Shown here: positions 2,380 to 17,065 of the stretch, piece by piece
How the letters are laid out: every line of letters starts with the position of its first letter
Numbering within the stretch: the first letter of the stretch is position 1
Source of the DNA: Iamia majanohamensis
GTDB taxonomy: Bacteria > Actinomycetota > Acidimicrobiia > Acidimicrobiales > Iamiaceae
DNA length: 64,000 bases
Direction of reading: 5' to 3'
NCBI RefSeq assembly: GCF_028532485.1
Contig: NZ_CP116942.1
Span: forward strand, 2,542,001-2,606,000
Notes under the pieces: model-generated
What the model saw: the letters and a program-made list of their open reading frames with translations, nothing else
The model's database searches: none
What the model was told of the DNA's origin: nothing
Made by a program: the position numbers and the translations under genes

Positions 2380-3803
2380 CGGGCGCCGCCCAGCAGCTCG
2401 GCCGCCACCAGCCGGTCGTCGAAGGCCAGCACCTGGTCGCCGATGACCTGGGTGGTCTCGTGGCCCTTGCCGGCCACCAGCACCACGTCGCCGGGGGCGG
2501 CGTCGGCGAAGGCGACCGCCAGGGCGGCGCGGCGGTCGGGCTCGACCACGAGGTCGGTGTCGGGGGGGATGCCGGCGAGCACGGCCTCGATGATCGCACC
2601 TGGGTCCTCGGACCTCGGGTTATCCGTCGTGAGCACGACCTTGTCGGCCGCCGCGGCGGCCGCGCCCATGAGCGGCCGCTTGGCCGCGTCGCGGTCGCCC
2701 CCGCAGCCGAACACGACGACGAGGCGCCCCTCCCCCACCTCGCGCAGGGCGGCCAGGACCTGGGCCAAGCCATCGGGGGTGTGGGCGTAGTCGACGAGGA
2801 CGGCGAAGGGCTGGCCCGCGTCGACCGGCTCGAGCCGCCCGGCGACCGGCGGGGTCCGGCCCAGGCCCCGGGCGACGACGTCGGGCGCCAGCCCGGCGGC
2901 CACCGCCACCTCGGCGGCCAGCAGGGCGTTGCGGACGTTGAAGCGCCCGGCGAGGGGGAGGCTGACGGGCTGGCCCCGCCAGGTGAAGCGGCTGCCCGCG
3001 GCGGAGAGCACGAGGCCCTCGGCCGCGTCGAGGCCGATGCCCGTGGTGGGCACGAGGGCGGCGTCGACGAGCAGCCGGCCGTGGGGGTCGTCGGTGACGA
3101 CCACGGCGTGGTCGGCCAGCTCGGGGGTGAACAGGCGGGCCTTGGCCGCGAAGTAGCGCTCCATGGTGCCGTGGTGGTCGAGGTGGTCGGGGCTGAGGTT
3201 GGTGAACCCGGCCACCGCGAACCGGGTGCCGTCGACGCGGTGCTGGTCGAGGGCGTGGGACGACACCTCCATGGCCACGACCTCGACGCCGTCGGCCACG
3301 GCCCGGGCCATCTGGGTCTGCAGCTCCGGGGCCTCGGGCGTGGTCCGGGCCCCGGTGAGGGTCCCGACGGTCACGATGCGCCGGCCCGCCTCGCCGAAGA
3401 TCGCGCCCAGGAGGTGCACCACGGTGGTCTTGCCGTTGGTGCCGGTGATGCCGAGCACCACGGCCCGGCGGGACGGGTGGCCGGCCACCAGCGAGGCGAC
3501 GGGGCCGAGGGCGCGCCGCACCGACGCGACGCGGACCTCGGGCACGCCCAGGCCGAGGGGGCGCTCGCAGAGGAGGGCGGCGGCGCCGGCCGCCACCGCG
3601 GCGGCGGCGTGGTCGTGGCCGTCGGCCACCGCCCCGGGGATGCAGCAGAAGAGGTCGCCCGGGGCCACGGCCCGGGAGTCGTGGCTGGTGCGGAGGACCT
3701 CGGTGGCCCCGTCGCCGTCGAGCGACGCGGGGCCGACCCCGCCCGCGACCGCGACGACCCCGTCGAGGGTCGCGGGTCCGGTGGCGTCGGGCGCGGCGCT
3801 CAC
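2376..3803 (-). CDS. murE: UDP-N-acetylmuramoyl-tripeptide synthetase (MurE), meso-diaminopimelate type
   Basis: MurE adds the third amino acid of the peptidoglycan stem. The 475-residue protein has the MurE N-terminal domain with a DSRAVAPGDLF segment, the ATP loop GITGTNGKTT, the lysine-bearing central domain and the C-terminal domain. The motif DNPRSEDP is the DNPR signature that, by established knowledge, marks meso-diaminopimelate-adding enzymes, so the wall is probably A1-gamma type. The GTG start overlaps the ftsI stop and the stop overlaps the mraY start, which fits translational coupling in the dcw operon. Confidence 0.95.
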   Translation of the reverse strand: MSAAPDATGPATLDGVVAVAGGVGPASLDGDGATEVLRTSHDSRAVAPGDLFCCIPGAVADGHDHAAAAVAAGAAALLCERPLGLGVPEVRVASVRRALGPVASLVAGHPSRRAVVLGITGTNGKTTVVHLLGAIFGEAGRRIVTVGTLTGARTTPEAPELQTQMARAVADGVEVVAMEVSSHALDQHRVDGTRFAVAGFTNLSPDHLDHHGTMERYFAAKARLFTPELADHAVVVTDDPHGRLLVDAALVPTTGIGLDAAEGLVLSAAGSRFTWRGQPVSLPLAGRFNVRNALLAAEVAVAAGLAPDVVARGLGRTPPVAGRLEPVDAGQPFAVLVDYAHTPDGLAQVLAALREVGEGRLVVVFGCGGDRDAAKRPLMGAAAAAADKVVLTTDNPRSEDPGAIIEAVLAGIPPDTDLVVEPDRRAALAVAFADAAPGDVVLVAGKGHETTQVIGDQVLAFDDRLVAAELLGGAR

Positions 3804-5980
3804 CCGCCGTCGCCGGCGGCGTCGGCCGCCCCGTCGCCGTCCGCGTCGACCGCGTCGACCGCGTCGTCCGCGTCGTCACCGGTCGCGCCCGGGTCGGACG
3901 CACCGTCGCCGGCGGTGCCGGTGGCGTCCTCCTCCCGCGCACCCGACGGCGGGATCACCGCGTCGGTGACGTCGCGGGCCGAGTCGGACAGGTCCGGGAC
4001 CTCGCTGACCGAGCCGCCGGCGGCCGGGGGGATGTCGAGGTCGCGGACGGCCCAGCGGGCCAGCTCGGAGAAGGCGGGGGCGGCGACGTCGCCGGCGTAG
4101 ATCGACCGGCTCGGGTCGGGCTCGTCCACCGCCACCAGGATCGACAGGTCCGGGTTCTCGGCCGGCAGCAGGCCCACGAAGGTGGCGACGTAGTGCATGC
4201 GACCGTCCTCGTCCTCGTAGCCGCCGTCGGGCTGGGGCTTGCGGGCCGTGCCCGTCTTGCCCGCCACCGAGTAGCCGGGGACGGCGGCGGCCTGGCCCGT
4301 GCCCCGGGACACGACCTGCTCCATCATGGCCCGCACCGACGCCGCCGTCGTCGCCGACACCACTCGGTGCGGCTCCTCGGAGGGCACCGGCTCCACCGTG
4401 CCGTCGGCCCGGGTCACCTCCCGGACCAGGCGGGCGGGGACGTAGGTGCCGTCGTTGGCCAGCACGTTGAAGGCCTGGAGCATCTGCAGCGCCGTCACCG
4501 ACACACCCTGGCCGATGGGGACCGACCCGAGGGCCGTGCTCTGGTCGCGGTAGTCCTCGGCGTCGAGGAGGAGGCCGTGGGACTCGGCGGGGAAGTCGAC
4601 CCCGGTGCCCGAGCCGAACCCGAAGCGCCGGAGGTACTCGTCGAGGCGGTCGCCGCCCAGGCCCTGGCCGAGCATGATCGTGCCCACGTTGGACGAGGTC
4701 GCCACGATGTCGGTGATCGACCAGTCCGTGGTGGGGTGCGGGTGCGAGTCGGTGAAGACGTGGTCGCCGACCTCGAGCTCGTCGGGCACCGACCACACCG
4801 TGTCCGGGGTGACGAGGCCCTCCTCGAGGGCGCCGGCCACGGTGATCACCTTGTTCACCGAGCCCGGCTCGTAGACGGTGGTGAGCCCGAGGTTGTTGGC
4901 GGAGGGGTCGAAGGCCCCGGTCTCCTCGTCCCGGCTCAGGTTGGCCAGCGCCAGCACCTCGCCGGTGGAGGGGCGGGAGATGATGGCGGTGCCGCCCTCG
5001 GCCCCGGCCCGCTCGAGGTGCTCGGCCAGGATGCGCTCGGTCTCGTACTGGAGGGCCTGGTCGAGGGTCAGCGACACCTGGGCGCCGGGCTGGGCCTCCT
5101 GGATGCGGCGGCGGGTGCCGGCGATGGCGCCGCCCCCGGGGGCCTTCGACCGCTCGTAGGTCACCTCGCCGGGGGTGCCGGTGAGCAGGTCGTCGAGCTG
5201 GAGCTCGAGGCCGGAGATGCCGGCCGACCCGTCGCCGCTCACGGTGCCGACGACCGAGCGGGCCAGGTCGTCGCTCGGCCGCTCGCGCTTGTACTCGAGG
5301 AACGTGCCGATGCCCCGGATGTCGAGGGCCTCGACGGTGTCGGCCACGTCGTCGTCGAGCACCCGGGCCAGCACGGAGAAGCGGCCCTCGCCGGTCATGC
5401 GGTCCTGGAGCTCGAGGCGGTCGACGTGGAGCAGCGGGGCCAGCTGGGCGGCCACCGCGCCCGGGTCGTCGATGATGCTGGGGTCGGCGTACACGGTGCG
5501 GCGGGGCACCGAGAGGGCCAGGGCCTGGCCGTCGCGGTCGACCAGGGCGCCGCGGCCGGCGGGGAGGGTGACCGACGCGATGCGCTGGTCCTCGCCCTCG
5601 GCCAGGTAGCGGTCGGGGTGGCGCACCTGCACGTCGACCAGGCGCACGCCGACCACGCCGAGCAGGACGAGGCTGAGCACCGGCAGGGTGAGGAGGCGAC
5701 GGCGCAGCACGTGGACCGGCGGCGGCCGGCCGGCCCGCCCCGCCCGCCGCTCCCCCCGGCCCGGCACCGGGCGACGGGCCGAGGCCGGCGTCGTCAGGCG
5801 GGGCGCGGGGGGACGGCGGGGGGCGGGGCGGTCGCCGGCGGGGCGGCGGCGGGGGGACGGCGCTGTCCCTCCCGCCGCCGACCGGCTGGTGGAGCGGGCC
5901 CGCCCGGCGGGCCGGGGCGGGGTGCTGCGACCCGCTCGGTAGGCGTCGAAGGCCCCGGTGACCGGGCGCCGGGGCGTCAT
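3800..5980 (-). CDS. ftsI: Septal peptidoglycan transpeptidase FtsI / class B penicillin-binding protein
   Basis: This is a D,D-transpeptidase that cross-links septal peptidoglycan. The 726-residue protein has a basic Pro/Arg-rich cytoplasmic tail (residues 1-90), one membrane segment at about 93-114, a class B dimerisation domain beginning GRGALVDRDG (143-152), and the penicillin-binding domain. The catalytic motifs are SVNK (Ser374, Lys377), SSN (429-431) and KTG (575-577). A roughly 75-residue Asp/Ala-rich acidic tail follows the transpeptidase domain; I do not recognise it and there is no clear PASTA domain. The ATG overlaps the ftsL stop (ATGA). Confidence 0.95.
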   Translation of the reverse strand: MTPRRPVTGAFDAYRAGRSTPPRPAGRARSTSRSAAGGTAPSPRRRPAGDRPAPRRPPAPRLTTPASARRPVPGRGERRAGRAGRPPPVHVLRRRLLTLPVLSLVLLGVVGVRLVDVQVRHPDRYLAEGEDQRIASVTLPAGRGALVDRDGQALALSVPRRTVYADPSIIDDPGAVAAQLAPLLHVDRLELQDRMTGEGRFSVLARVLDDDVADTVEALDIRGIGTFLEYKRERPSDDLARSVVGTVSGDGSAGISGLELQLDDLLTGTPGEVTYERSKAPGGGAIAGTRRRIQEAQPGAQVSLTLDQALQYETERILAEHLERAGAEGGTAIISRPSTGEVLALANLSRDEETGAFDPSANNLGLTTVYEPGSVNKVITVAGALEEGLVTPDTVWSVPDELEVGDHVFTDSHPHPTTDWSITDIVATSSNVGTIMLGQGLGGDRLDEYLRRFGFGSGTGVDFPAESHGLLLDAEDYRDQSTALGSVPIGQGVSVTALQMLQAFNVLANDGTYVPARLVREVTRADGTVEPVPSEEPHRVVSATTAASVRAMMEQVVSRGTGQAAAVPGYSVAGKTGTARKPQPDGGYEDEDGRMHYVATFVGLLPAENPDLSILVAVDEPDPSRSIYAGDVAAPAFSELARWAVRDLDIPPAAGGSVSEVPDLSDSARDVTDAVIPPSGAREEDATGTAGDGASDPGATGDDADDAVDAVDADGDGAADAAGDGG

Positions 5981-6453
5981 CCCTGGGAGCCTCCGGCTCC
6001 TCCGTCGGCGGCGCCGTCCGCGGCCCGCTCGTCGGTCGGGGCGCCCTCGGAGCCGGCCTCGCCGGCCGGGGCGGGCGGGGCCGGGGCCTCGCCGGGCGAC
6101 AGCCAGGTGACGTCCTCGGGGACGACCATGCCGTCGCGGGTCGCGGCCTCGACGATGCGCTCCGGCGACTGGAGCTCGGCCACCTGGAGCTGCAGCCCCT
6201 GGTTCTGGCGGGTGGCCTCGGTGATCCGGGAGTCGACCCGGTCCAGCTCCCGCTGGCCCGAGACGATGGTGGTGTGCACCGCGGCGGCGAGGAGCAGCAC
6301 GGCGAAGACGAGCACGGTGGACAGGGTGAGGACCAGCCGCACCCGGCCCCGCGGGACCTGGGGGGGCACGATCCGCAGCGGGGGCCGGGAGGGCCGCTCC
6401 TCGGCCGGACGGGCCCGGCGGGGCGCGGCGGCGGCGGGGCGCGGCGCGGTCAC
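5977..6453 (-). CDS. ftsL: FtsL-like septum formation initiator protein
   Basis: This is a small bitopic division protein. Position, between rsmH and ftsI, and topology identify it more than sequence does. From the GTG at 6453, which overlaps the rsmH stop (GTGA), it is 158 residues: a Pro/Arg/Ala-rich cytoplasmic part, one strong membrane helix at about residues 40-60, a short heptad-rich stretch (ELDRVDSRITEATRQN) typical of the FtsL/DivIC coiled coil, then an Ala/Gly/Glu-rich tail. A longer reading upstream in the same frame runs into rsmH and has no start signal, so I prefer 6453. FtsL would recruit FtsI/FtsW with FtsB/FtsQ partners encoded elsewhere. Confidence 0.8.
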   Translation of the reverse strand: MTAPRPAAAAPRRARPAEERPSRPPLRIVPPQVPRGRVRLVLTLSTVLVFAVLLLAAAVHTTIVSGQRELDRVDSRITEATRQNQGLQLQVAELQSPERIVEAATRDGMVVPEDVTWLSPGEAPAPPAPAGEAGSEGAPTDERAADGAADGGAGGSQG

Positions 6454-7439
6454 GGGGTCTCCCCGGGGGCCAGGGCCTCCACGGCCCGGAGCCGGGCGCT
6501 GGAGGCGCGGGGGTTGGCGGCCCGCTCGGCGTCGTCGGCCACCCAGGGCTTGCGGCGCAGCAGGCGGTGGGTGGGCTCGGCCCCGCACACGCAGGGCAGG
6601 CCCTCGGGGCAGGTGCAGCCGCCGTCGGCCGCGGCCCGGAAGCGGGTCTTCACCATCCGGTCCTCGACCGAGTGGAAGGAGATGACCGCCAGGCGGCCCC
6701 CGGGCACGAGGGCGTCGAGGGCGAGGTCGAGGGTGCGGTCGAGGGTGCCGATCTCGTCGTTCACCAGGATGCGGACGGCCTGGAAGACGCGCTTGGCCGG
6801 GTCCCCCCGACGCCGGCGGGCTGCGGGCAGCGCGCCGCGGACGGCCTCGGCCAGTTCCGAGGTGGTGCGGGGCTCGGCCTCGACCAGGGCCCGGGCCACG
6901 CGCCGGGCGTGGGGCTCGTCGGCCAGGTCCCGCAGGGCCCGGACCAGCGCGTCCTCGTCGACCTCGGCGAGGAGGTCGGCCGCGGTGCGGCCCCGGGTCT
7001 GGTCCATGCGCATGTCGAGGGGGCCGTCGCGGTCGGAGCGGTAGCTGAAGCCCCGCTCGGGTCGGTCGACCTGGGGGGAGGAGACGCCGAGGTCGGCGAG
7101 GACGGCGGTGACGTCGTCGGCCCCTGCTGCGTCCAGCACCGCAGGGAGGCCGTCGGAGCGGGCGTGGTGGAGCGAGACCCGCGACCCGAACCGGGCCAGC
7201 CGCTCGGCCGCGATCGCCAGGGCGTCGCGGTCCCGGTCGATGCCGACGAGGCGCAGCCCCGGGTGGGCGTCGAGCAGGAGGGCGGCGTGGCCGCCGAGGC
7301 CGACGGTGAGGTCGACGTAGGTGCCGCCGTCGGTGGCGGCGAAGACCGACGCCACCTCGGCCGCCAGGACGGGGACGTGGTCGTGGCCGCCGCCACGACG
7401 GGTGTCGGGGGTCTCGTGGTCGGCCATGGCCAGCACCAT
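6450..7439 (-). CDS. rsmH: 16S rRNA (cytosine(1402)-N(4))-methyltransferase RsmH (MraW)
   Basis: This SAM-dependent enzyme methylates N4 of C1402 in 16S rRNA and is a constant member of the dcw cluster. The 329-residue protein begins with the HVPVLAAEV motif and the SAM-binding segment YVDLTVGLGGHA. It continues with LADLGVSSPQVD, the GPLDMRMD loop, FQAVRILVNDE and the VISFHSVEDR motif, all typical of the family. The ATG at 7439 follows a GGAGAG ribosome binding site six bases upstream, 10 bases after the mraZ stop. A second ATG at residue 5 is possible. Confidence 0.96.
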   Translation of the reverse strand: MVLAMADHETPDTRRGGGHDHVPVLAAEVASVFAATDGGTYVDLTVGLGGHAALLLDAHPGLRLVGIDRDRDALAIAAERLARFGSRVSLHHARSDGLPAVLDAAGADDVTAVLADLGVSSPQVDRPERGFSYRSDRDGPLDMRMDQTRGRTAADLLAEVDEDALVRALRDLADEPHARRVARALVEAEPRTTSELAEAVRGALPAARRRRGDPAKRVFQAVRILVNDEIGTLDRTLDLALDALVPGGRLAVISFHSVEDRMVKTRFRAAADGGCTCPEGLPCVCGAEPTHRLLRRKPWVADDAERAANPRASSARLRAVEALAPGETP

Positions 7440-7449
7440 CTCTCTCTCC

Positions 7450-7971
7450 TCAGCTCTCGAGCTCGGGGATGTACGCGCTCTGCACGACGCCGAGGGTCAC
7501 CAGGTGGTCGGCCCGCTCGTCGAGCTCCTCGGCGGTGATGGCCCCGGGCCACAGCTCCACCCGGCGCCCCCGACCCTGGAAGCGGACCTCGTCGGTGATG
7601 CCGACCTGGGACCGGACCTCCTCGGGCAGCACAAGGCGGCCCTGCAGGTCGAGGCCGAAGGTGACCGTGGAGCTCCAGAGGGTGCTCAGGTGGCGGTCGA
7701 CGTCCTCACCTGCGTCGGCCAGCGAGGCCGCGGCCCGGGCGACGTAGAGGTCGAACTCCCCGGGGGCCATGGCCGCCAGGCAGGTGCCCCGCCAGGGGGT
7801 GATCAGGCCGCCGTCGGCCGCGAACGGGGCCCGGAAGGCAGCCGGCATGACCACGCGCGACTTGGCGTCGATGCCGTTGGTGAAGCGCCCGCACAGACGG
7901 GAGGGCGGCGCGGGGGCCGGTCCGTCGTCGCGGCGCGCCTCGCCCTCTGTCTCCACGCTCGCGTGCCCCAT
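7450..7971 (-). CDS. mraZ: Transcriptional regulator / cell division protein MraZ
   Basis: MraZ is an AbrB-fold DNA-binding protein that in other bacteria represses its own dcw operon. Two copies of the fold are visible: the first begins FTNGIDAKSRVVMPAAFR (about residues 30-47) and the second has GLDLQGRLVLPEEVR. At 173 residues it is about 25 longer than usual because of an N-terminal polar extension. That start is supported by a promoter whose -10 ends seven bases before the ATG, which would make the message leaderless. It is the first gene of a seven-gene run reaching at least murD. Confidence 0.93.
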   Translation of the reverse strand: MGHASVETEGEARRDDGPAPAPPSRLCGRFTNGIDAKSRVVMPAAFRAPFAADGGLITPWRGTCLAAMAPGEFDLYVARAAASLADAGEDVDRHLSTLWSSTVTFGLDLQGRLVLPEEVRSQVGITDEVRFQGRGRRVELWPGAITAEELDERADHLVTLGVVQSAYIPELES

Positions 7972-10425: not shown

Positions 10426-11478
10426 TCAGGCCTCGTCGGGCGCAGCCGCCCGGCGGCGGCGGGCCCGGACGGCGACGACCGACAGGAGCCCGACCAGGCC
10501 GGCGGTGCCGGCCACCGGGACCAGGGCCCCGCCGCCCCCGTCGTCACCCTCGGTCACGGCCATGGTGCCCTCGGGCGCGCCCTGGGCCCGCTCGTCGCCG
10601 TCGCCCGGGGCCGCTCCGTCGGCCTCGTCGGCCGCGGCCCGGTCGCCCTCGGGGTCGGCCACCGCGTCGCCGGCCTCGGTGGTGGTCGTCGCCGGCGCGG
10701 TCGTGGTGGTCGAGGAGGACGAGGACGACGACCCCGGCGGACGGGTCGTGGTCGCGCCCCCGGGCCCGGCGTCACCGGGGGGTGGCGCCGTCGTGGGGGT
10801 GCCGGCCGCGCCGCCGCCCTCCGGCGGCGCCGGGGTCGGCCCGGGTGCGTCGCCGCCCGGACGGGGGGTCGCGGTGCCCGCACCGCCCCCGGCGGGGGGG
10901 CCGGTCGCCGGCGGGGCGGTGGTGGGCGGCGCCGTGCTGGGGGGCGGGGTCGGGGCGCACATGTCGTACACGCGGGACGCGGACCACGAGGTGCCGGTCC
11001 CCCACTGCCACGCCTCGACGCCGCCCGCCGCCGGGCGGGTGGACCCGGCCCCGACCTGCGAGTACCGGTAGCCCTGGTAGTAGCTCCAGGACCGGGGCTC
11101 CTGGCAGACCAGGCACGAGGGGCCGGCCGCGCACCCCACCTGCTCGCCGCTGCGGGGGTCGGTGAGGGCGCACACCGCGCCCCCGCCGACCGAGCCGTAG
11201 CCCTGGACGACCGGGGCCAGCCCGGCCCGCCGGAGCACGTCGATCCCGGTGCCGCCGGGGTCGACGCAGGCGGTGAAGAGGGAGCGGCCCGGGAACGAGA
11301 CGGCCACGCCCACCCCGCCCGCGGCGCGCGCCGCGGCGTCGCAGGCGACGGGGGTGGCCGCCGGGGCCGCGGCGGCCGGGGTCGGGGCGAGGGCCAGGGC
11401 CCCCGCCAGGACGAGCGCCCCGGCGAGGGCCACGAGCCCGGCGACGAGGCCGAGGGGCGAGCGGCGGACGGCAGCCAT
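10426..11478 (-). CDS. Secreted, membrane-anchored DUF4430 / transcobalamin beta-domain-like protein
   Basis: The 350-residue protein has an N-terminal signal peptide (about residues 8-38, ending in APAAAA). A roughly 125-residue extracellular domain follows with TGIDVLRRAGL, a Gly-rich GYGSVGGGAVCALTD segment, a CLVC pair and YYQGYRYSQVG. A long Pro/Thr/Gly-rich stalk (about 190-310), one membrane helix near the C-terminus and an arginine-rich tail complete it. The globular domain resembles DUF4430, the fold of the C-terminal beta domain that closes over cobalamin in animal transcobalamin. It lies two bases after the alpha/alpha-barrel gene, behind a B12 riboswitch and divergent from an ECF transporter. 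I infer a surface cobalamin-binding component. No binding residues can be assigned from sequence alone. Confidence 0.75.
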   Translation of the reverse strand: MAAVRRSPLGLVAGLVALAGALVLAGALALAPTPAAAAPAATPVACDAAARAAGGVGVAVSFPGRSLFTACVDPGGTGIDVLRRAGLAPVVQGYGSVGGGAVCALTDPRSGEQVGCAAGPSCLVCQEPRSWSYYQGYRYSQVGAGSTRPAAGGVEAWQWGTGTSWSASRVYDMCAPTPPPSTAPPTTAPPATGPPAGGGAGTATPRPGGDAPGPTPAPPEGGGAAGTPTTAPPPGDAGPGGATTTRPPGSSSSSSSTTTTAPATTTTEAGDAVADPEGDRAAADEADGAAPGDGDERAQGAPEGTMAVTEGDDGGGGALVPVAGTAGLVGLLSVVAVRARRRRAAAPDEA

Positions 11479-11480
11479 CG

Positions 11481-13247
11481 TCAGGCGGCCGGGCCCGTCT
11501 TGCGGACGTACTCCGAGGACCCGGCGATGAGCAGGACCAGGCGCTCGGGGCTCTGGCCCCGGCGGATCTCGCCCACCCAGAAGTCCCGGCCGGCGACGTC
11601 GGTGTCGCGGCGGAGCAGCTGGTGGTAGGTGTCGGTCACCAGGACCCGGAGGGCCTCGGTCGAGCCGAGCAGGGTGCGGGCCACCTGCTGGCGGCTGCGC
11701 CCCGACGCCAGCTGGCCCAGGGCCCACTGCCGCCCGGCGGCGTCGGCCGGTCGGCCCACGACGACCGGGTACACGGCGTCGACCCACGACTCGGCGGTCG
11801 GCGGCCCGGCGGGGAAGGCCGGCGCGGTGGAGTCGTAGTACTCCTGGGTGCCGAGGAGGTAGGCGGCGGCGTCGTACCGCCGACCGTCCCGCACGGCGGC
11901 GGCCAGGATCGCGCGCTCGTCGCCGTCCAGCACGGGCTGCTCGAGCCCGTCGAGGCCGTACTGCGCGACCAGGCGGTCCACGACCCGGCGGTTGTACTCG
12001 CCGGTGCCGGTGAGGCGCCGGGCGTACTGGGCCGGGGTCAGGGCACCCGAGTCGAGCTGGCCCGCCCAGAAGGCCGACCCGGACGCATCGGTGAGCCGCC
12101 CCAGGAGGTCGGCGTAGATGGCGTTCACCAGGCGACGGTTCGCACCCACCGTGGGCGCCGTGCAGCCTGCCCCGGCGTAGGGCCAGGAGCCGTCCGCGGC
12201 CACCAGGGCCTGGACGGCCTGGGTGGTGGCGAAGGTGTTGAGGCCGAACCCGTCGTTGGGGCCGGCGATGTGGCCGTCGGGCTGCTGGCGGGCCTCGAGG
12301 GTCGCCGTCGGCGACGGGTACGGCAGCCCGGCGATGCGGGGGTCGACGGCGTCGCGCCAGCACGGCGCGTCGGGGTCGCCCCCGAGGGTGGCGGCGGCGA
12401 GGACCACCATCGACGTGGAGTTGGGGTTGCCGTCGTCGAAGGCGGTGGCCCACTCCCCCGTCCACTCCTGGGTGAGGCCGAGGCTGAGGACCGCCCGGGC
12501 CACGGCCGGGGCCGTGTCGGGACCCGAGGCGTCGTCGGCGAGGGTGAGGGCGATGACGACCGAGGCGGTCAGGTCGGGGTCGGTGCCCGTGCCCCCCGGG
12601 TCGCCCGAGAAGTCGAAGGACCCGTTGGCCTGCTGCGAGGCCACGATGGACGAGAGCAGCGCCGGGGGGGCCAGCTGCCCGCGGGCGCCGTAGGCCCAGG
12701 CCGCGAAGACCCGCCCGCCGAAGGGCAGCCCGGCGAAGTCGCCGGCACCCCCGGCGCCCGCCTCGAGGGCGGCGACCAGGTCGACCGGCTCGGCCGTGTC
12801 GTCGGAGGGGTCGAAGTCGGTCGGGTCGAGGCCGAGCGGTGCGGCGACCAGGGCGATGACCTTGCCGGCCTGGGCCGACGCCGTGGCGGCGTCGCCGCCC
12901 TGGACCGAGTCGACCCAGTCGTCGACGGCGTCGAGGGCGTCGTTGCCGTCGGTGGTGACGGCCTCCACGGCGGCGAGGGCGGCGGCCTCGTCCCAGCCGG
13001 GGCCGGGCTGGCCGGCGGCGGCCAGGGCGAGGACGGCGTCGGGGGTCTCGAAGCCGGGGAAGTCGGCCAGCTCGAAGCCGCCGTCGGCCTCCTGCTGGGA
13101 CGCCAGCCAGGCCGTCGCCGCGTCGACCTCGGCGGAGGCGCGGGGTGTGGCCGGGGCCGTCGGGGCGGCGCCGGCCGGTGCGGCGAGCAGCGGGACGGCG
13201 GCGAGGGTCGCGGCCGCGAGGCCGGCGAGACGGGTGCGCGTGCGCAA
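11481..13247 (-). CDS. Secreted alpha/alpha-barrel (prenyltransferase/squalene-cyclase repeat) protein with DUF4214 repeats
   Basis: This 588-residue protein has a signal peptide (residues 1-28, ending PAGAAP). A region of about 300 residues with repeats such as AWLASQQEADGGF, SIVASQQANGSFDF and EARQQPDGHI follows, the pattern of alpha6/alpha6 barrels. The C-terminal third holds three copies of a DUF4214-type motif (VNAIYADLLGR..FW, VDAVYPVVVGR, VTDTYHQLLRR..FW). The catalytic DxDD of terpene cyclases is not seen, so a binding role is more likely. The start is a TTG at 13247 behind a strong AGGAGGAG site. The same barrel forms the alpha domain of transcobalamin and intrinsic factor. With the B12 riboswitch upstream and the DUF4430-like gene next, I infer a cobalamin-capture protein. 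Confidence 0.8.
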   Translation of the reverse strand: MRTRTRLAGLAAATLAAVPLLAAPAGAAPTAPATPRASAEVDAATAWLASQQEADGGFELADFPGFETPDAVLALAAAGQPGPGWDEAAALAAVEAVTTDGNDALDAVDDWVDSVQGGDAATASAQAGKVIALVAAPLGLDPTDFDPSDDTAEPVDLVAALEAGAGGAGDFAGLPFGGRVFAAWAYGARGQLAPPALLSSIVASQQANGSFDFSGDPGGTGTDPDLTASVVIALTLADDASGPDTAPAVARAVLSLGLTQEWTGEWATAFDDGNPNSTSMVVLAAATLGGDPDAPCWRDAVDPRIAGLPYPSPTATLEARQQPDGHIAGPNDGFGLNTFATTQAVQALVAADGSWPYAGAGCTAPTVGANRRLVNAIYADLLGRLTDASGSAFWAGQLDSGALTPAQYARRLTGTGEYNRRVVDRLVAQYGLDGLEQPVLDGDERAILAAAVRDGRRYDAAAYLLGTQEYYDSTAPAFPAGPPTAESWVDAVYPVVVGRPADAAGRQWALGQLASGRSRQQVARTLLGSTEALRVLVTDTYHQLLRRDTDVAGRDFWVGEIRRGQSPERLVLLIAGSSEYVRKTGPAA

Positions 13248-13290
13248 GGGGTTCTCCTCCTGTGCCCCCAGATCCTTCGAGGGGCGGTGG

Positions 13291-13305
13291 GGCCGCGGAG
13301 CGGCC
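13291..13305 (-). other. GC hairpin between the cobalamin aptamer and the ribosome binding site
   Basis: GGCCGC and GCGGCC form a six-base-pair stem around a three-base loop. It sits between the aptamer and the AGGAGG site of the downstream gene. It could belong to the riboswitch expression platform. There is no U-run, so simple intrinsic termination is not supported. Confidence 0.35.
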
Positions 13306-13335
13306 GTGGGCAGGGCCGGTCGGGCCGGCGGCAGG

Positions 13336-13482
13336 GCGGGTCACCTGGCTTGCGGCCTCCGGGGAGGTCGCTCACAGCTGCGGGTCAGCGCCGGACTTGC
13401 ACCGGCTTCCCCCGTCGTCCCGGGTTGTCTCTCCCGGGGGGTCGACCGACCGCAACATCCGGGTTGCGGCCGACCTCTGCTG
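13336..13482 (-). ncRNA. Cobalamin (adenosylcobalamin-type) riboswitch
   Basis: Read on the minus strand, the leader contains the conserved cobalamin aptamer elements in order. These are GGGGGAAGCCGGTGCAAGTCC (core 13403-13393), CTGACCCGCAGCTGTGAGC (13388-13370), a local hairpin, and the B12 box AGCCAGGTGACC (13350-13339). A CCGCAAC/GTTGCGG hairpin lies 5' of the core and may be part of P1/P2. The transcript should begin near 13483 from the promoter at 13490-13518 and continue into the alpha/alpha-barrel gene. Established riboswitch behaviour is lowered expression when cobalamin is plentiful. The divergent ECF operon has no such element in its short leader. Confidence 0.93.
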
Positions 13483-13485
13483 GCT

Positions 13486-13498
13486 GCGTACCGTACGC
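13486..13498. promoter_or_regulatory. Perfect 13-base palindrome at the divergent promoter centre
   Basis: GCGTAC-C-GTACGC reads as TACCGT on the plus strand and TACGGT on the minus strand. It can supply a -10 hexamer to both divergent operons, and its symmetry could also make it a protein-binding site. The plus-strand -35 is poor (TTGCGG, 19-base spacing). Confidence 0.5.
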
Positions 13499-13518
13499 AC
13501 CGGGTCCGAGACCGTCAA
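13490..13518 (-). promoter_or_regulatory. Promoter of the riboswitch-controlled B12 capture genes (TTGACG-17-TACGGT)
   Basis: On the minus strand, TTGACG (13518-13513) and TACGGT (13495-13490) are exactly 17 bases apart. They place transcription start at about 13483, immediately before the cobalamin aptamer. Confidence 0.75.
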
Positions 13519-13539
13519 AGACCGCAGGAGGTGGCACCG

Positions 13540-14631
13540 GTGACCAGCCCCCTGCACGCGGTGACGTGGATGGTGTGGGCCGTCGCCGTCACCGTGTCGC
13601 TGCAGCTGGCCCGCAACCCGCTGCTCGTCGCCGTGGTGCTGGCCGCGGTGTGGGTGGTGGTGGAGACCCACCGCCGGCCCGGGGCCCTGGCCCGCGCCTT
13701 CCCGGTGCTGCTGGCCGTGGCCACCGCCTTCGGGCTCCTGCGGGTCGTGCTCATCGGGCTGACCACACCGGCTGCGGAGGGGGCCTCGGGCGTGCTCGTG
13801 ACCCTCCCCCAGGCCACCCTTCCCCGCCTGCTCGGCGGCATCTCCGTCGGCGGTGCCGTCTCCCAGTCGGTCGTGCTGACCACCGCCATCGACAGCCTGG
13901 TGCTCATCGGGATCATGGCCGCCTTCGGGGCCTTCAACTCGGTGGCCTCGCACCACGAGCTGCTGGCCGCCGCGCCCCGTGCCTTCCACGAGCCCGGCCT
14001 GGTCCTCACCGTGGGCCTGGCCTTCGTGCCCGCCACCCTCGACGCCGCCACCGCGGCCCGCGAGGCCGACCGGGCCCGCACCGGGGGCGTGCGCGTGCGC
14101 CGGGGGCGGGCCCTCCGCCAGGCCCTCCCCGTGCTGGAGACGGGGCTGGAGCGGGCCGTGCGCCTGGCCGAGTCCATGGACGCACGCGGCTACGGCCGCA
14201 GCCGGGCCCGCACCGGCGACCGGGTGGCCGCCGTCCTCGGCACCGGCGCCCTGCTCGCCCTGGCCGGGGCGGTCGTGGCCCTCGTGGGCGAGGCCGGCGG
14301 GGTGGCTGCGGCGCTGGCCGCGGTCGGGGTGGTGACACTCGTGGGGGCGGTGGTCGTGAGCGGGCGGTCGGCCCCCAGCCGCTACCGGCGCCGCCGCCTC
14401 ACCCGGCGCGACGCGGCGGTGATGGCCGGTGTGCTGGCCGTGCCCGCCGCCCTCGGCCTGTGCGTGGGCCTGGGCGTGGACGGCCTGGTGTGGGACCCGG
14501 CGGTGCTGCCGTTCCGCCCGCCGCCGCTGCCGGTGGTGCCCGCGGTGCTGCTGGTCGGCCTGGCCCTGCCCGCCGTGGTGCGCCCGGTGCGCGGCGTCCT
14601 CCCGACCCCGGCCCCGGCGGCCGCGGCGTGA
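13540..14631 (+). CDS. ecfT: ECF transporter transmembrane component EcfT (CbiQ family)
   Basis: EcfT couples the ATPases to the substrate-binding S component in energy-coupling-factor vitamin importers. The 363-residue protein has several hydrophobic segments in two groups, separated by the cytoplasmic coupling region. That region carries two family motifs: AATAAREADRARTGGVRV and the AESMDARGYGRSRA box that contacts the ATPases. The GTG at 13540 follows an AGGAGG site (13526-13531) with eight bases between them. A second GTG three codons upstream overlaps that site and is less likely. It is the first gene of the operon ecfT-ecfA-S component, divergent from the riboswitch-controlled secreted genes, which points to cobalamin as substrate. 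Confidence 0.93.
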   Translation: MTSPLHAVTWMVWAVAVTVSLQLARNPLLVAVVLAAVWVVVETHRRPGALARAFPVLLAVATAFGLLRVVLIGLTTPAAEGASGVLVTLPQATLPRLLGGISVGGAVSQSVVLTTAIDSLVLIGIMAAFGAFNSVASHHELLAAAPRAFHEPGLVLTVGLAFVPATLDAATAAREADRARTGGVRVRRGRALRQALPVLETGLERAVRLAESMDARGYGRSRARTGDRVAAVLGTGALLALAGAVVALVGEAGGVAAALAAVGVVTLVGAVVVSGRSAPSRYRRRRLTRRDAAVMAGVLAVPAALGLCVGLGVDGLVWDPAVLPFRPPPLPVVPAVLLVGLALPAVVRPVRGVLPTPAPAAAA

Positions 14632-16217
14632 CCGCGCCCCACCCCGGCGAGGTGCGGTGGCACGACGTCGGCTTCGCCTACCCCGAGGGGCCGCCCGTCC
14701 TCGACGGGGTCGACCTGGTGGTGGCCGACGGCGAGGTCGTGCTGGTCGTGGGGGGCTCGGGCTCGGGCAAGAGCACGCTGCTGCGCACGGTGAACGGGCT
14801 CGTGCCCCACACCACCGGCGGCCGCTTCCGGGGGGCGGTCGGGGTCGGGCCCCTCGACGTCACCGGCCTCCGACCCCGGGACCTGGCCGGCGCCGTCGGG
14901 TTCGTCCACCAGGACCCCGAGGCCCAGGTGGTGGTGGACGAGGTCGAGCACGACGTGGCCTTCGTGCTGGAGAACCTGGGCCTGCCCGAGGCCGACATGC
15001 GCCGCCGCGTCGAGGAGGTCCTCGATGCGGTGGGCATCGCCGCCCTCCGCCACCGGTCGCCGTCGACGCTGTCGGGAGGCGAGCGCCAGCGCTGCGCGGT
15101 GGCGGGGGCCCTGGCCGCGGCGCCGGCCGTGCTCGTCCTCGACGAGCCCACCTCGATGCTCGACCCGCAGGGCGCGGACGACGTCCTCGCCGCGGTGGCC
15201 CGCCTGGCCGACGACCTGGGGACCACCGTGGTCATGGCCGAGCACCGCCTCGAGCGGGCCGCCCCCCTCGCCGACCGCGCCGTGGTCCTCGCCGACGGGC
15301 GGGTCGCCGCCGACGGCGCACCCGGACCGGTCCTGGCCGGCGACCCCGGGGCTCCCCCCGTGGCCCACCTGGGGCGGCTCCTCGGCTGGGACCCGCCGCC
15401 GCTCACCGTGCGCGAGGCCCGCCGCCGGGCCCGCACGACCCCCGTCGCCCTCTCCCCGTCGCCCGTCCCCGACCCCCCGGCACCGGGTGAGCCGCTCGTC
15501 GTCGCCCGGGGCCTGGCCGCGGGCCACGGGGGCCGCACCCCCGTCCTCCGCGGCGTCGACCTCACCCTCCACCGGGGTGAGGTCGTCGCCCTGGTCGGCC
15601 GCAACGGCTCGGGCAAGTCCACCCTGCTGCGGACCCTGGCCGACCTGGCCGCGCCGGAGGCCGGCACCGTCGACCGCCGGGGCCGGGTGGCCCTGGTGCC
15701 CCAGGACCCGAGCAGCCTGCTCTTCTCCCCCACCGTGCGCGACGAGGTGGCCGAGACCTGCCGCCTGGTCGGCCGGGACGCGGACGAGGTCGAGCCCTGG
15801 CTGGCGCGCCTGGCCCTGACCGACCTGGCCGACCGCCACCCCCGCAGCCTCTCGACCGGGGAGCGCCAGCGGGTCGCCGTCGCCGCGGTGGCCGTCGGCG
15901 GGGCCCCGGTGCTGCTGCTCGACGAGCCGACCCGCGGCATCGACGCCACCTCCCGGGCCGCGCTGGAGGCCGCCGCCACCGCCCACGCGGCCGGCGGGGG
16001 TGCGGTGGTGATCGCCACCCACGACGTGGAGCTGGCGGCCCGGACCGCCACCCGCGTGGTGAGCCTCGGCGGCGGCGAGGTGGTGGCCGACGGGCCCGCC
16101 CGCCAGGTGCTGTCGGGGTCGCTGTTCGCACCTCAGGTGCTGCGCGTCCTTCCCCCGCACCTGACCGTGGCCGAGGTGGCCGCGGCCCTGCCCACCCGCA
16201 CCGGGGGCCCGCGATGA
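14628..16217 (+). CDS. ecfA: ECF transporter ATPase, two ATP-binding domains fused (EcfA-EcfA')
   Basis: The 529-residue protein is two ABC ATPase domains joined by a Pro-rich linker at about residues 265-290. Domain 1 has Walker A GGSGSGKST, Q-loop HQDPEAQ, signature LSGGERQR and Walker B VLVLDEPTSMLD. Domain 2 has Walker A GRNGSGKST, QDPSSLLF, signature LSTGERQR (glycine to threonine) and LLLDEPTRGID. FAPQVLRV near the end is common in CbiO-type ATPases. The GTG overlaps the ecfT stop (GTGA) and the stop overlaps the S-component ATG. Fusion of the two subunits in one chain is common in actinobacteria. Confidence 0.95.
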   Translation: MTAPHPGEVRWHDVGFAYPEGPPVLDGVDLVVADGEVVLVVGGSGSGKSTLLRTVNGLVPHTTGGRFRGAVGVGPLDVTGLRPRDLAGAVGFVHQDPEAQVVVDEVEHDVAFVLENLGLPEADMRRRVEEVLDAVGIAALRHRSPSTLSGGERQRCAVAGALAAAPAVLVLDEPTSMLDPQGADDVLAAVARLADDLGTTVVMAEHRLERAAPLADRAVVLADGRVAADGAPGPVLAGDPGAPPVAHLGRLLGWDPPPLTVREARRRARTTPVALSPSPVPDPPAPGEPLVVARGLAAGHGGRTPVLRGVDLTLHRGEVVALVGRNGSGKSTLLRTLADLAAPEAGTVDRRGRVALVPQDPSSLLFSPTVRDEVAETCRLVGRDADEVEPWLARLALTDLADRHPRSLSTGERQRVAVAAVAVGGAPVLLLDEPTRGIDATSRAALEAAATAHAAGGGAVVIATHDVELAARTATRVVSLGGGEVVADGPARQVLSGSLFAPQVLRVLPPHLTVAEVAAALPTRTGGPR

Positions 16218-17065
16218 GCACCGGCACCCGCATCCGGCTCGTCTACGTGCTCGCCAGCGTGGTCGGCCTGGGAGCCTTCCTCTACCCGTTCTGGCTGCCG
16301 GCCGAGGCCGGGGTGGCGACGGCCCACTCGGCCGACGCCCCCCTCCTGGCCGGCGCGGTGGGGGCCCTGGCCGTCACTGCGGTGATGGTGGAGATCCGGG
16401 CCGGCACCATGAGCGGCACCGACGTCGCCCTGCTGGGGATGCTCTCGGCCATGGCCGGCCTGCTCCGGCTGCTCGACCTGCCCGGTGGGGGCAGCGGCCT
16501 CTTCTTCCTCGTGATCCTGGGAGCGGCTGCGTTCGGTCCCCGCTTCGGGTTCCTGCTCGGCCTGTTCTCCATGGCCCTGAGCGCGGTGGTGACCGGGGGG
16601 ATCGGCCCCTGGCTGCCGTTCCAGATGCTGGTCCTGGCGTGGATGGGCGCAGCGGTGGGCGGCCTGGGCCGCCTCACCCGGCGCCTCGACCCGCGCCTGG
16701 AGGTCGCGGTGCTGGCCGCGGCCTCGTGGCTGGCCGCCTTCGGCTACGGCGCGGTGATCAACCTGTGGTCGTGGCCCCTGCTGCCGGGCGACGGCCCCCT
16801 GCAGTGGCGGCCGGGGCTGGGCCTGGCCGGCACCCTGGAGCACTACTGGGCCTTCTACGTGGCCACCTCGCTGGCGTGGGACGCGGCCGGGGCCACCGCC
16901 AACCTGGTGGCCATCGCCCTGCTGGGGCGGCCGGTGCTGCGGTCCCTCCGCCGCTTCGCCCACCGGCTCGACCCCGTGGTCGAGCTGGAGCCGTCGTCCC
17001 GCCCCGCGTCGGCGCCGCTCAGCCCCGGGCCCGCGGCCACGCCCGGGCCCACCGCAGCCAGGTGA
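16214..17065 (+). CDS. ECF transporter S (substrate-binding) component, probably for cobalamin
   Basis: This is an integral membrane protein of 283 residues with about six hydrophobic segments and a Pro/Ala/Ser-rich C-terminal tail after residue 255. The segment GGIGPWLPFQMLVLAWMGA matches the motif shared by ECF S components, which contacts EcfT. Longer S components of this shape have been linked to B12 in actinobacteria by comparative genomics. Here the link rests on position: last gene of the ecfT-ecfA operon, opposite a cobalamin riboswitch. Its 3' end overlaps the convergent 86-residue gene by 47 bases. Substrate identity is inference. Confidence 0.85.
   Translation: MSTGTRIRLVYVLASVVGLGAFLYPFWLPAEAGVATAHSADAPLLAGAVGALAVTAVMVEIRAGTMSGTDVALLGMLSAMAGLLRLLDLPGGGSGLFFLVILGAAAFGPRFGFLLGLFSMALSAVVTGGIGPWLPFQMLVLAWMGAAVGGLGRLTRRLDPRLEVAVLAAASWLAAFGYGAVINLWSWPLLPGDGPLQWRPGLGLAGTLEHYWAFYVATSLAWDAAGATANLVAIALLGRPVLRSLRRFAHRLDPVVELEPSSRPASAPLSPGPAATPGPTAAR

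Follow-up and report, generated by a model that had tools for sequence, protein, structure and literature searches.

We describe a locus in a 64,000-nucleotide stretch of the Iamia majanohamensis genome (contig NZ_CP116942.1, positions 2,542,001 to 2,606,000; called the window below, with positions counted from its first nucleotide) that probably captures cobalamin (vitamin B12), or a close corrinoid, outside the cell and imports it. By computation, the locus combines a cobalamin riboswitch, genes for two proteins with secretion and anchoring features, one with a DUF4430-like domain and one with an alpha/alpha6 barrel, and a complete energy-coupling factor (ECF) importer, and the linkage between these parts is conserved in relatives. 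We consider it probable that the two domains jointly enclose one cobalamin molecule, which then passes to the importer's S component. More tentatively, the pair may be a split transcobalamin, in which two proteins, each with its own gene and anchor, hold B12 between them and deliver it in trans to the S component of an ECF importer. Such a dedicated two-part receptor would occur across Actinobacteria and Chloroflexi, and the animal B12 carriers may descend from proteins of this kind.

The riboswitch is the leader of both secreted-protein genes. The Rfam model RF00174 matched its core on the minus strand, from 13412 to 13338 (46.7 bits against a curated cutoff of 31.5; E = 1.5e-8), and a custom model built from related leaders (R1) covered 13464 to 13319 on the same strand (89.6 bits). 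This was the sole RF00174 match in the 4,576,919-base, single-contig genome, for which 150 of 295 first-pass candidates were scored. Free folding of the leader gave a stability no better than that of shuffled sequences (z = 0.21). The riboswitch assignment therefore relies on the covariance models and not on folding energy. Behind the riboswitch on the minus strand lie the gene for the barrel protein (11481 to 13247; 588 amino acids, TTG start) and the gene for the DUF4430-like protein (10426 to 11478; 350 amino acids), whose ATG start lies two bases past the stop codon of the barrel gene. A long open reading frame with a GTG start, spanning 10426 to 13344, was rejected as an out-of-frame reading across the barrel gene; the true start of the DUF4430-like gene is at 11478. 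Divergent from these genes, on the plus strand, are the genes for EcfT (13540 to 14631, GTG start), a fused double ECF ATPase (14628 to 16217, GTG start), and the S component (16214 to 17065), with neighbors overlapping by a few bases. An earlier note on this stretch, made from the sequence alone, had placed a cobalamin riboswitch before two secreted-protein genes and a complete ECF importer directly opposite. Both claims were borne out, the first by the Rfam match and the N-terminal hydrophobic segments of both proteins.

The DUF4430-like protein is predicted from its sequence to be secreted and anchored at the surface, as are members of the transcobalamin-like clade of SLBB domains. Hydropathy analysis identified hydrophobic segments at residues 6 to 38 and 316 to 339. 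The second of these, encoded at 10462 to 10533, would be a C-terminal membrane segment and is followed by an Arg-rich tail. Between it and the DUF4430-like domain (10957 to 11322), the translation reads as a stalk rich in Pro, Thr, and Ser (10536 to 10956), so that the Pro/Thr stalk and C-terminal anchor described in the earlier note are indeed there. In one related locus (L038), the DUF4430-like protein (3728 to 4423) has a lipobox-like stretch in place of the stalk and C-terminal anchor.

No Pfam model matched the DUF4430-like protein of the window alone. DUF4430 (PF14478) was reached by 3 of 13 full-length family members (best E = 4.1e-6), and the window protein was not among them. An AlphaFold2 model of the domain (122 residues, 16-row alignment) had a predicted local distance difference test score (pLDDT) of 93.0 and a predicted template modeling score (pTM) of 0.86. 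All nine Foldseek matches to this model at an E value of ≤0.001 were transcobalamin, and the first 19 rows consisted of transcobalamin, haptocorrin, intrinsic factor, or 3u7z, a bacterial DUF4430 structure. Likewise, the first 15 rows returned by VIA belonged to these families (Z = 10.6 to 11.7 over 92 to 95 residues, 2.1 to 2.4 Å), and the next row dropped to 7.3. Two Cys residues and one Trp residue are invariant across all 16 alignment rows. The model therefore points to a beta-grasp domain like the beta domain of transcobalamin, in agreement with the DUF4430-like assignment of the earlier note. According to its entry title, structure 5np4 contains the isolated beta domain of transcobalamin with cyanocobalamin; a separate beta domain thus appears able to bind B12. 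Searches of PDB sequences gave nothing up to an E value of 10 with the full-length DUF4430-like alignment and, with the single secreted proteins, chance-level matches for one and none for the other. A tblastn search with the DUF4430-like protein found no match in plasmids, and a search of viral contigs yielded 66 pattern stretches and no relative.

The second secreted protein has an N-terminal hydrophobic segment at residues 7 to 28 and a barrel domain at 12183 to 13136. The model of this domain (318 residues, 14 rows; pLDDT, 91.8; pTM, 0.92) is an alpha/alpha6 barrel. SQHop_cyclase_C was matched at an E value of ≤0.1 by all 14 family members and weakly by the window protein. Among solved structures, class II terpene cyclases are the closest in fold (Foldseek, 8pak, E = 4.6e-6; VIA, 1sqc, Z = 23.6), and the barrel profile matched squalene-hopene cyclase among PDB sequences with an E value of 4.9e-27. 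We located the site of the catalytic DxDD motif by alignment with cyclases. The window barrel reads DPDL there and has no DxDD anywhere within the barrel domain. The first Asp is retained in all 14 members and the third in 13 of 14, and the fourth position is T, L, S, or A, never D, in all 14. The description in the earlier note of an alpha/alpha barrel lacking the cyclase motif holds, and the loss of the motif extends to all 14 aligned barrel domains. Its suggestion that both folds are those of transcobalamin is supported for the DUF4430-like domain; the barrel, taken by itself, is nearer to terpene cyclases than to transcobalamin. As modeled, the barrel fold is consistent with a split transcobalamin and by itself gives no pointer to B12.

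The C-terminal part of the barrel protein contains three stretches of DUF4214 (PF13946, E = 1.2e-22; 11484 to 12152, limits approximate) that were absent from the earlier note. These repeats possibly serve in surface attachment. Among the 14 aligned barrel proteins, DUF4214 occurs in nine and SLH in one, and the protein of locus L032 stops after the barrel. Across five loci (L025, L031, L032, L137, and the window), the barrel is followed by DUF4214, by SLH, by a repeat of unidentified type, by a membrane segment with an LPRTGG-like stretch, or by no further module. Such variation behind a constant barrel suggests that the attachment part has been swapped while the barrel was kept. Six loci from Chloroflexi and relatives (L153, L157, L160, L173, L174, and L180) encode two or three barrel domains per open frame, and loci of this type often have two consecutive DUF4430-like genes within the operon.

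Fusions connect the two domains directly. Both occur in one open reading frame in four Chloroflexi loci (L151, L153, L161, and L167) and in L039. The profiles used to find these fusions were built from split proteins, were not iterated, and contained no Chloroflexi rows. The fused frames were matched with E values of 2.6e-18 to 3e-30 for the DUF4430-like domain and 3.8e-17 to 1.2e-41 for the barrel; the DUF4430-like part of L039 is itself a row of the profile. The beta-type domain comes first in all five. A sixth candidate, L137, was rejected as a barrel-first fusion; its domains are separated by a stalk, a membrane segment, and an LPRTGG-like stretch, and it may represent two joined proteins.

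We then asked how closely these genes are tied to cobalamin riboswitches in other genomes. Homologues of the S component were found in 23 of 41 related genomes, and 15 of the 20 stretches fetched around them contained an RF00174 match over the cutoff. A profile of the DUF4430-like domain, run over 148 genomes of the order, identified 26 places in 22 genomes. For 22 of these places, a same-strand RF00174 match lies 162 to 2,167 bases upstream, and 17 of the matches exceed the Rfam cutoff. The four places with no riboswitch are both of those in G093, one of two in G159, and one of two in G004. When the eight places that are themselves profile rows were dropped, 14 of 18 were still downstream of a riboswitch.

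A wider survey of public genomes was anchored on the S component. At least 578 relatives were found, of which the best 80 were kept; these are not a random sample, and at least 9 of the 80 loci lie on contigs shared with the earlier set. The profiles for the barrel and the DUF4430-like domain were iterated on the loci, and the custom riboswitch model was built from 23 leaders, with at least three of the riboswitch loci in its training set. Among the 80 loci, 52 had a DUF4430-like domain, 45 had a barrel, 40 had both, and 57 had either. A riboswitch was present in 46 of the 57 loci with a capture domain versus 1 of the 23 without one (Fisher's test, P = 1.3e-10; one Rfam replacement, at L161). 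For loci with 6 kb on both sides, the corresponding numbers were 25 of 26 and 1 of 6 (P = 1.7e-4). Both P values are too small, because the loci are related. Rfam's own model confirmed 13 of the 20 loci given to it (10 of 11 and 3 of 9), and the riboswitches of L183, L187, L190, L193, L194, and L196 were supported by the custom model alone. The first recognized gene after the riboswitch (n = 48) was the barrel gene in 35 cases, the DUF4430-like gene in 11, and the EcfT gene in 1; in 1 case there was none. In 29 of the 80 loci, the riboswitch, a capture gene, EcfT, and the S component follow one another in that order on one strand, so the importer there is likely to be under the control of the same riboswitch. 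For example, the order in L041 is riboswitch, barrel, DUF4430-like, EcfT, ATPase, S component, and that in L036 is riboswitch, DUF4430-like, EcfT, ATPase, S component, barrel. The link to B12-regulated loci and to ECF S components, for which the earlier note had proposed a survey of homologues, is thus found well beyond the window. None of the three outcomes that the earlier note had named as refuting its reading was obtained.

The importer genes are predicted to encode an ECF transporter with EcfT, two ATPases, and an S component. EcfT scored below the Pfam cutoff for CbiQ (18.8 versus 25 bits), yet its position beside the S component is conserved in related loci. The ATPase gene gave two stretches of ABC_tran (E = 8.7e-55) and 309.5 bits for ECF_ATPase_1 (cutoff, 315), and the S component matched ECF_trnsprt (38.3 bits; cutoff, 30.7) and has seven hydrophobic segments. 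We infer that cobalamin is the substrate of the S component. The genome has six B12-binding domains over the cutoff and no match to CbiC (PF02570), and the bacterium appears unable to make the corrin ring. At four loci from Chloroflexus, Thermomicrobiales, and Anaerolineae (L168, L170, L171, and L189), S-component homologues have neither recognized capture genes nor EcfT nearby; three of these loci gave no riboswitch match, and L189 gave one at an E value of 0.16. Perhaps these S components have another substrate or use a shared ECF module. In L177, a cobalamin riboswitch directly precedes EcfT and the S component, and neither a barrel nor a DUF4430-like gene was recognized; this locus may encode a B12 importer that works without the capture pair, or its capture genes may have diverged.

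These data suggest the following route. At low intracellular B12, the riboswitch would permit expression of the barrel and DUF4430-like proteins, as the known action of this riboswitch class implies. Both proteins would be exported, the barrel protein being kept at the surface by its DUF4214 repeats and the DUF4430-like protein being held on its stalk by the C-terminal membrane segment. The two domains would then clasp one cobalamin from opposite sides, like the alpha and beta domains of transcobalamin. Finally, the complex would release cobalamin to the S component, and the ECF importer would move it inside at the cost of ATP. Cobalamin as the ligand, joint binding, and hand-over are suggested by the fold of one of the domains, by the fusions, and by the genomic context. 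Sequential binding by two proteins is physically reasonable, given the isolated beta domain with cyanocobalamin in 5np4.

Several observations weigh against this scheme. In the Foldseek search with the barrel, transcobalamin ranked below terpene cyclases and first appeared at row 27 (E = 4.8e-3, TMq = 0.51). It was not among the 50 VIA matches listed for the barrel or among the 30 PDB sequences matched by the barrel profile at an E value of ≤1. The S-component profile matched only two receptor chains in the PDB (E = 0.06 to 0.07), and no solved S component was recognized. CbiC was present in 2 of 23 genomes with an S component versus 6 of 18 without one, a difference that was not significant (P = 0.11). 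The window riboswitch is oriented toward the two secreted-protein genes alone and not toward the importer, and neither the Rfam model nor the custom model detected a riboswitch on the importer strand. The two domains are also sometimes found apart. There was no recognized barrel near the DUF4430-like domain in 8 of 33 loci (the window included) or in 12 of the 52 DUF4430-like loci of the best-80 survey, and no recognized DUF4430-like domain in 5 of the 45 barrel loci of that survey; some contigs in the survey end early.

The loci with a DUF4430-like domain, a riboswitch, and an importer but no recognized barrel raise a rather unlikely alternative, in which the DUF4430-like protein is the sole cobalamin binder and supplies the S component by itself. 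The barrel would then have a different role within the regulon; it might, for instance, fix the receptor in the cell wall or recognize a different ligand. Barrel-less examples include three with long flanks (L194 and L196, from Ornithinimicrobium, and L183), the barrel shows no clear specific likeness to that of transcobalamin, and the isolated beta domain solved with cyanocobalamin (5np4, by its title) keeps a sole binder in play. However, the barrel gene is most often the first recognized gene behind the riboswitch (35 of 48 cases), the barrel is fused to the DUF4430-like domain in several Chloroflexi and in L039, and a few loci have a barrel and no recognized DUF4430-like domain. Joint capture by both proteins remains the reading that we prefer.

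The imported compound could instead, or in addition, be cobinamide, another cobamide, or cobalt, which we judge improbable. Cobalamin riboswitches also govern the transport of cobalt and precursors (PMC3766115, in the portion of its text available to us), EcfT is related to CbiQ, and the ATPases are related to CbiO. On the other hand, the Pfam hits of the S component include the general family ECF_trnsprt and no CbiM model, and a transcobalamin-like fold suits a corrinoid. In addition, the lack of a CbiC match in the genome means that cobalt would not be required for building corrin de novo. Finally, a secreted terpene cyclase-like enzyme that happens to be encoded next to the DUF4430-like gene is hardly credible; the top profile and structure matches of the barrel are squalene-hopene and related class II cyclases and two of the motif's Asp residues are largely retained, but the fourth position of DxDD is never Asp, the protein is secreted, and it is linked to riboswitches and fused to DUF4430-like domains, and we rejected a cyclase function on the loss of DxDD.

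Animal transcobalamin, intrinsic factor, and haptocorrin share with this system the fold of the beta domain and an alpha/alpha6-barrel partner. They differ in being one chain with the barrel first, whereas here there are two genes and the clean fusions put the beta domain first; moreover, the window barrel shows no clear specific likeness to the barrel of the animal carriers. The closest bacterial precedent is that of Burroughs et al. 2007 (PMC1796856), who predicted that bacteria scavenge B12 with transcobalamin-like domains; these domains are often fused to a toroid, which may lie on either side, and CbiO and CbiQ are encoded alongside. Like the proteins described here, this SLBB clade comprises secreted, surface-anchored, beta-like domains with alpha/alpha toroids and CbiO- and CbiQ-like neighbors, a neighborhood that is present in the window, and it is found in bacteria that usually lack key B12 biosynthesis enzymes. 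In the accessible text, that study stresses low-GC Gram-positive bacteria, planctomycetes, and some archaea and describes fusions, whereas in Actinobacteria and Chloroflexi we found the two domains on separate proteins, each with its own anchor. The words riboswitch and ECF occur zero times in that text, with no S component, and both are linked to the pair here. Riboswitch-regulated B12 transporters in Chloroflexi are covered by Sun et al. 2013 (PMC3766115), as far as the available part of that paper goes.

To our knowledge, ECF importers are generally portrayed as having no need of a separate protein for capture. ECF-CbrT of Lactobacillus delbrueckii (PMC5997447) is likewise an ECF-type importer with an S component that takes cobalamin. 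In the part of that report available to us, the S component itself binds the substrate, and there is no mention of a capture protein outside the cell; by sequence, the S family found here matches no solved S component.

BtuG of Bacteroides is a beta-propeller. Like the pair described here, it is a riboswitch-linked surface protein that captures B12, but it is a lipoprotein of the Gram-negative outer membrane with BtuB as its partner (PMC6143338, available portion). In the open-licence PMC literature, we found no experimental description of a barrel and DUF4430-like pair. The novelty claimed in the earlier note stands to that extent; the idea of B12 scavenging itself, however, had been predicted in 2007 (PMC1796856, accessible text). 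As far as our searches show, what is new within that literature is the split, separately anchored pair, its tight linkage with cobalamin riboswitches, the S-component family that accompanies it, and the spread in Actinobacteria, which includes Streptomyces, Kribbella, and Ornithinimicrobium, and in Chloroflexi.

Capture of B12 before import is little studied in walled bacteria that have no outer membrane, and the locus suggests that in some of them distinct surface proteins clamp B12 ahead of its import. With a two-part receptor under riboswitch control, the 2007 prediction becomes open to a direct test. Such a receptor would explain what DUF4430 and many proteins annotated as squalene cyclase-like do, and it bears on the origin of animal transcobalamin.

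Other RNAs were noted near some of the surveyed loci (L032, 10326 to 10422; L148, 27 to 108; L196, 14021 to 14065; and L110, 5923 to 6014); they are glycine, ZMP/ZTP, and guanidine-II riboswitches and a selenocysteine tRNA. In the window, MraW- and MraZ-like genes, which mark the start of a cell division cluster, lie at 6450 to 7971, a few genes from the B12 locus.

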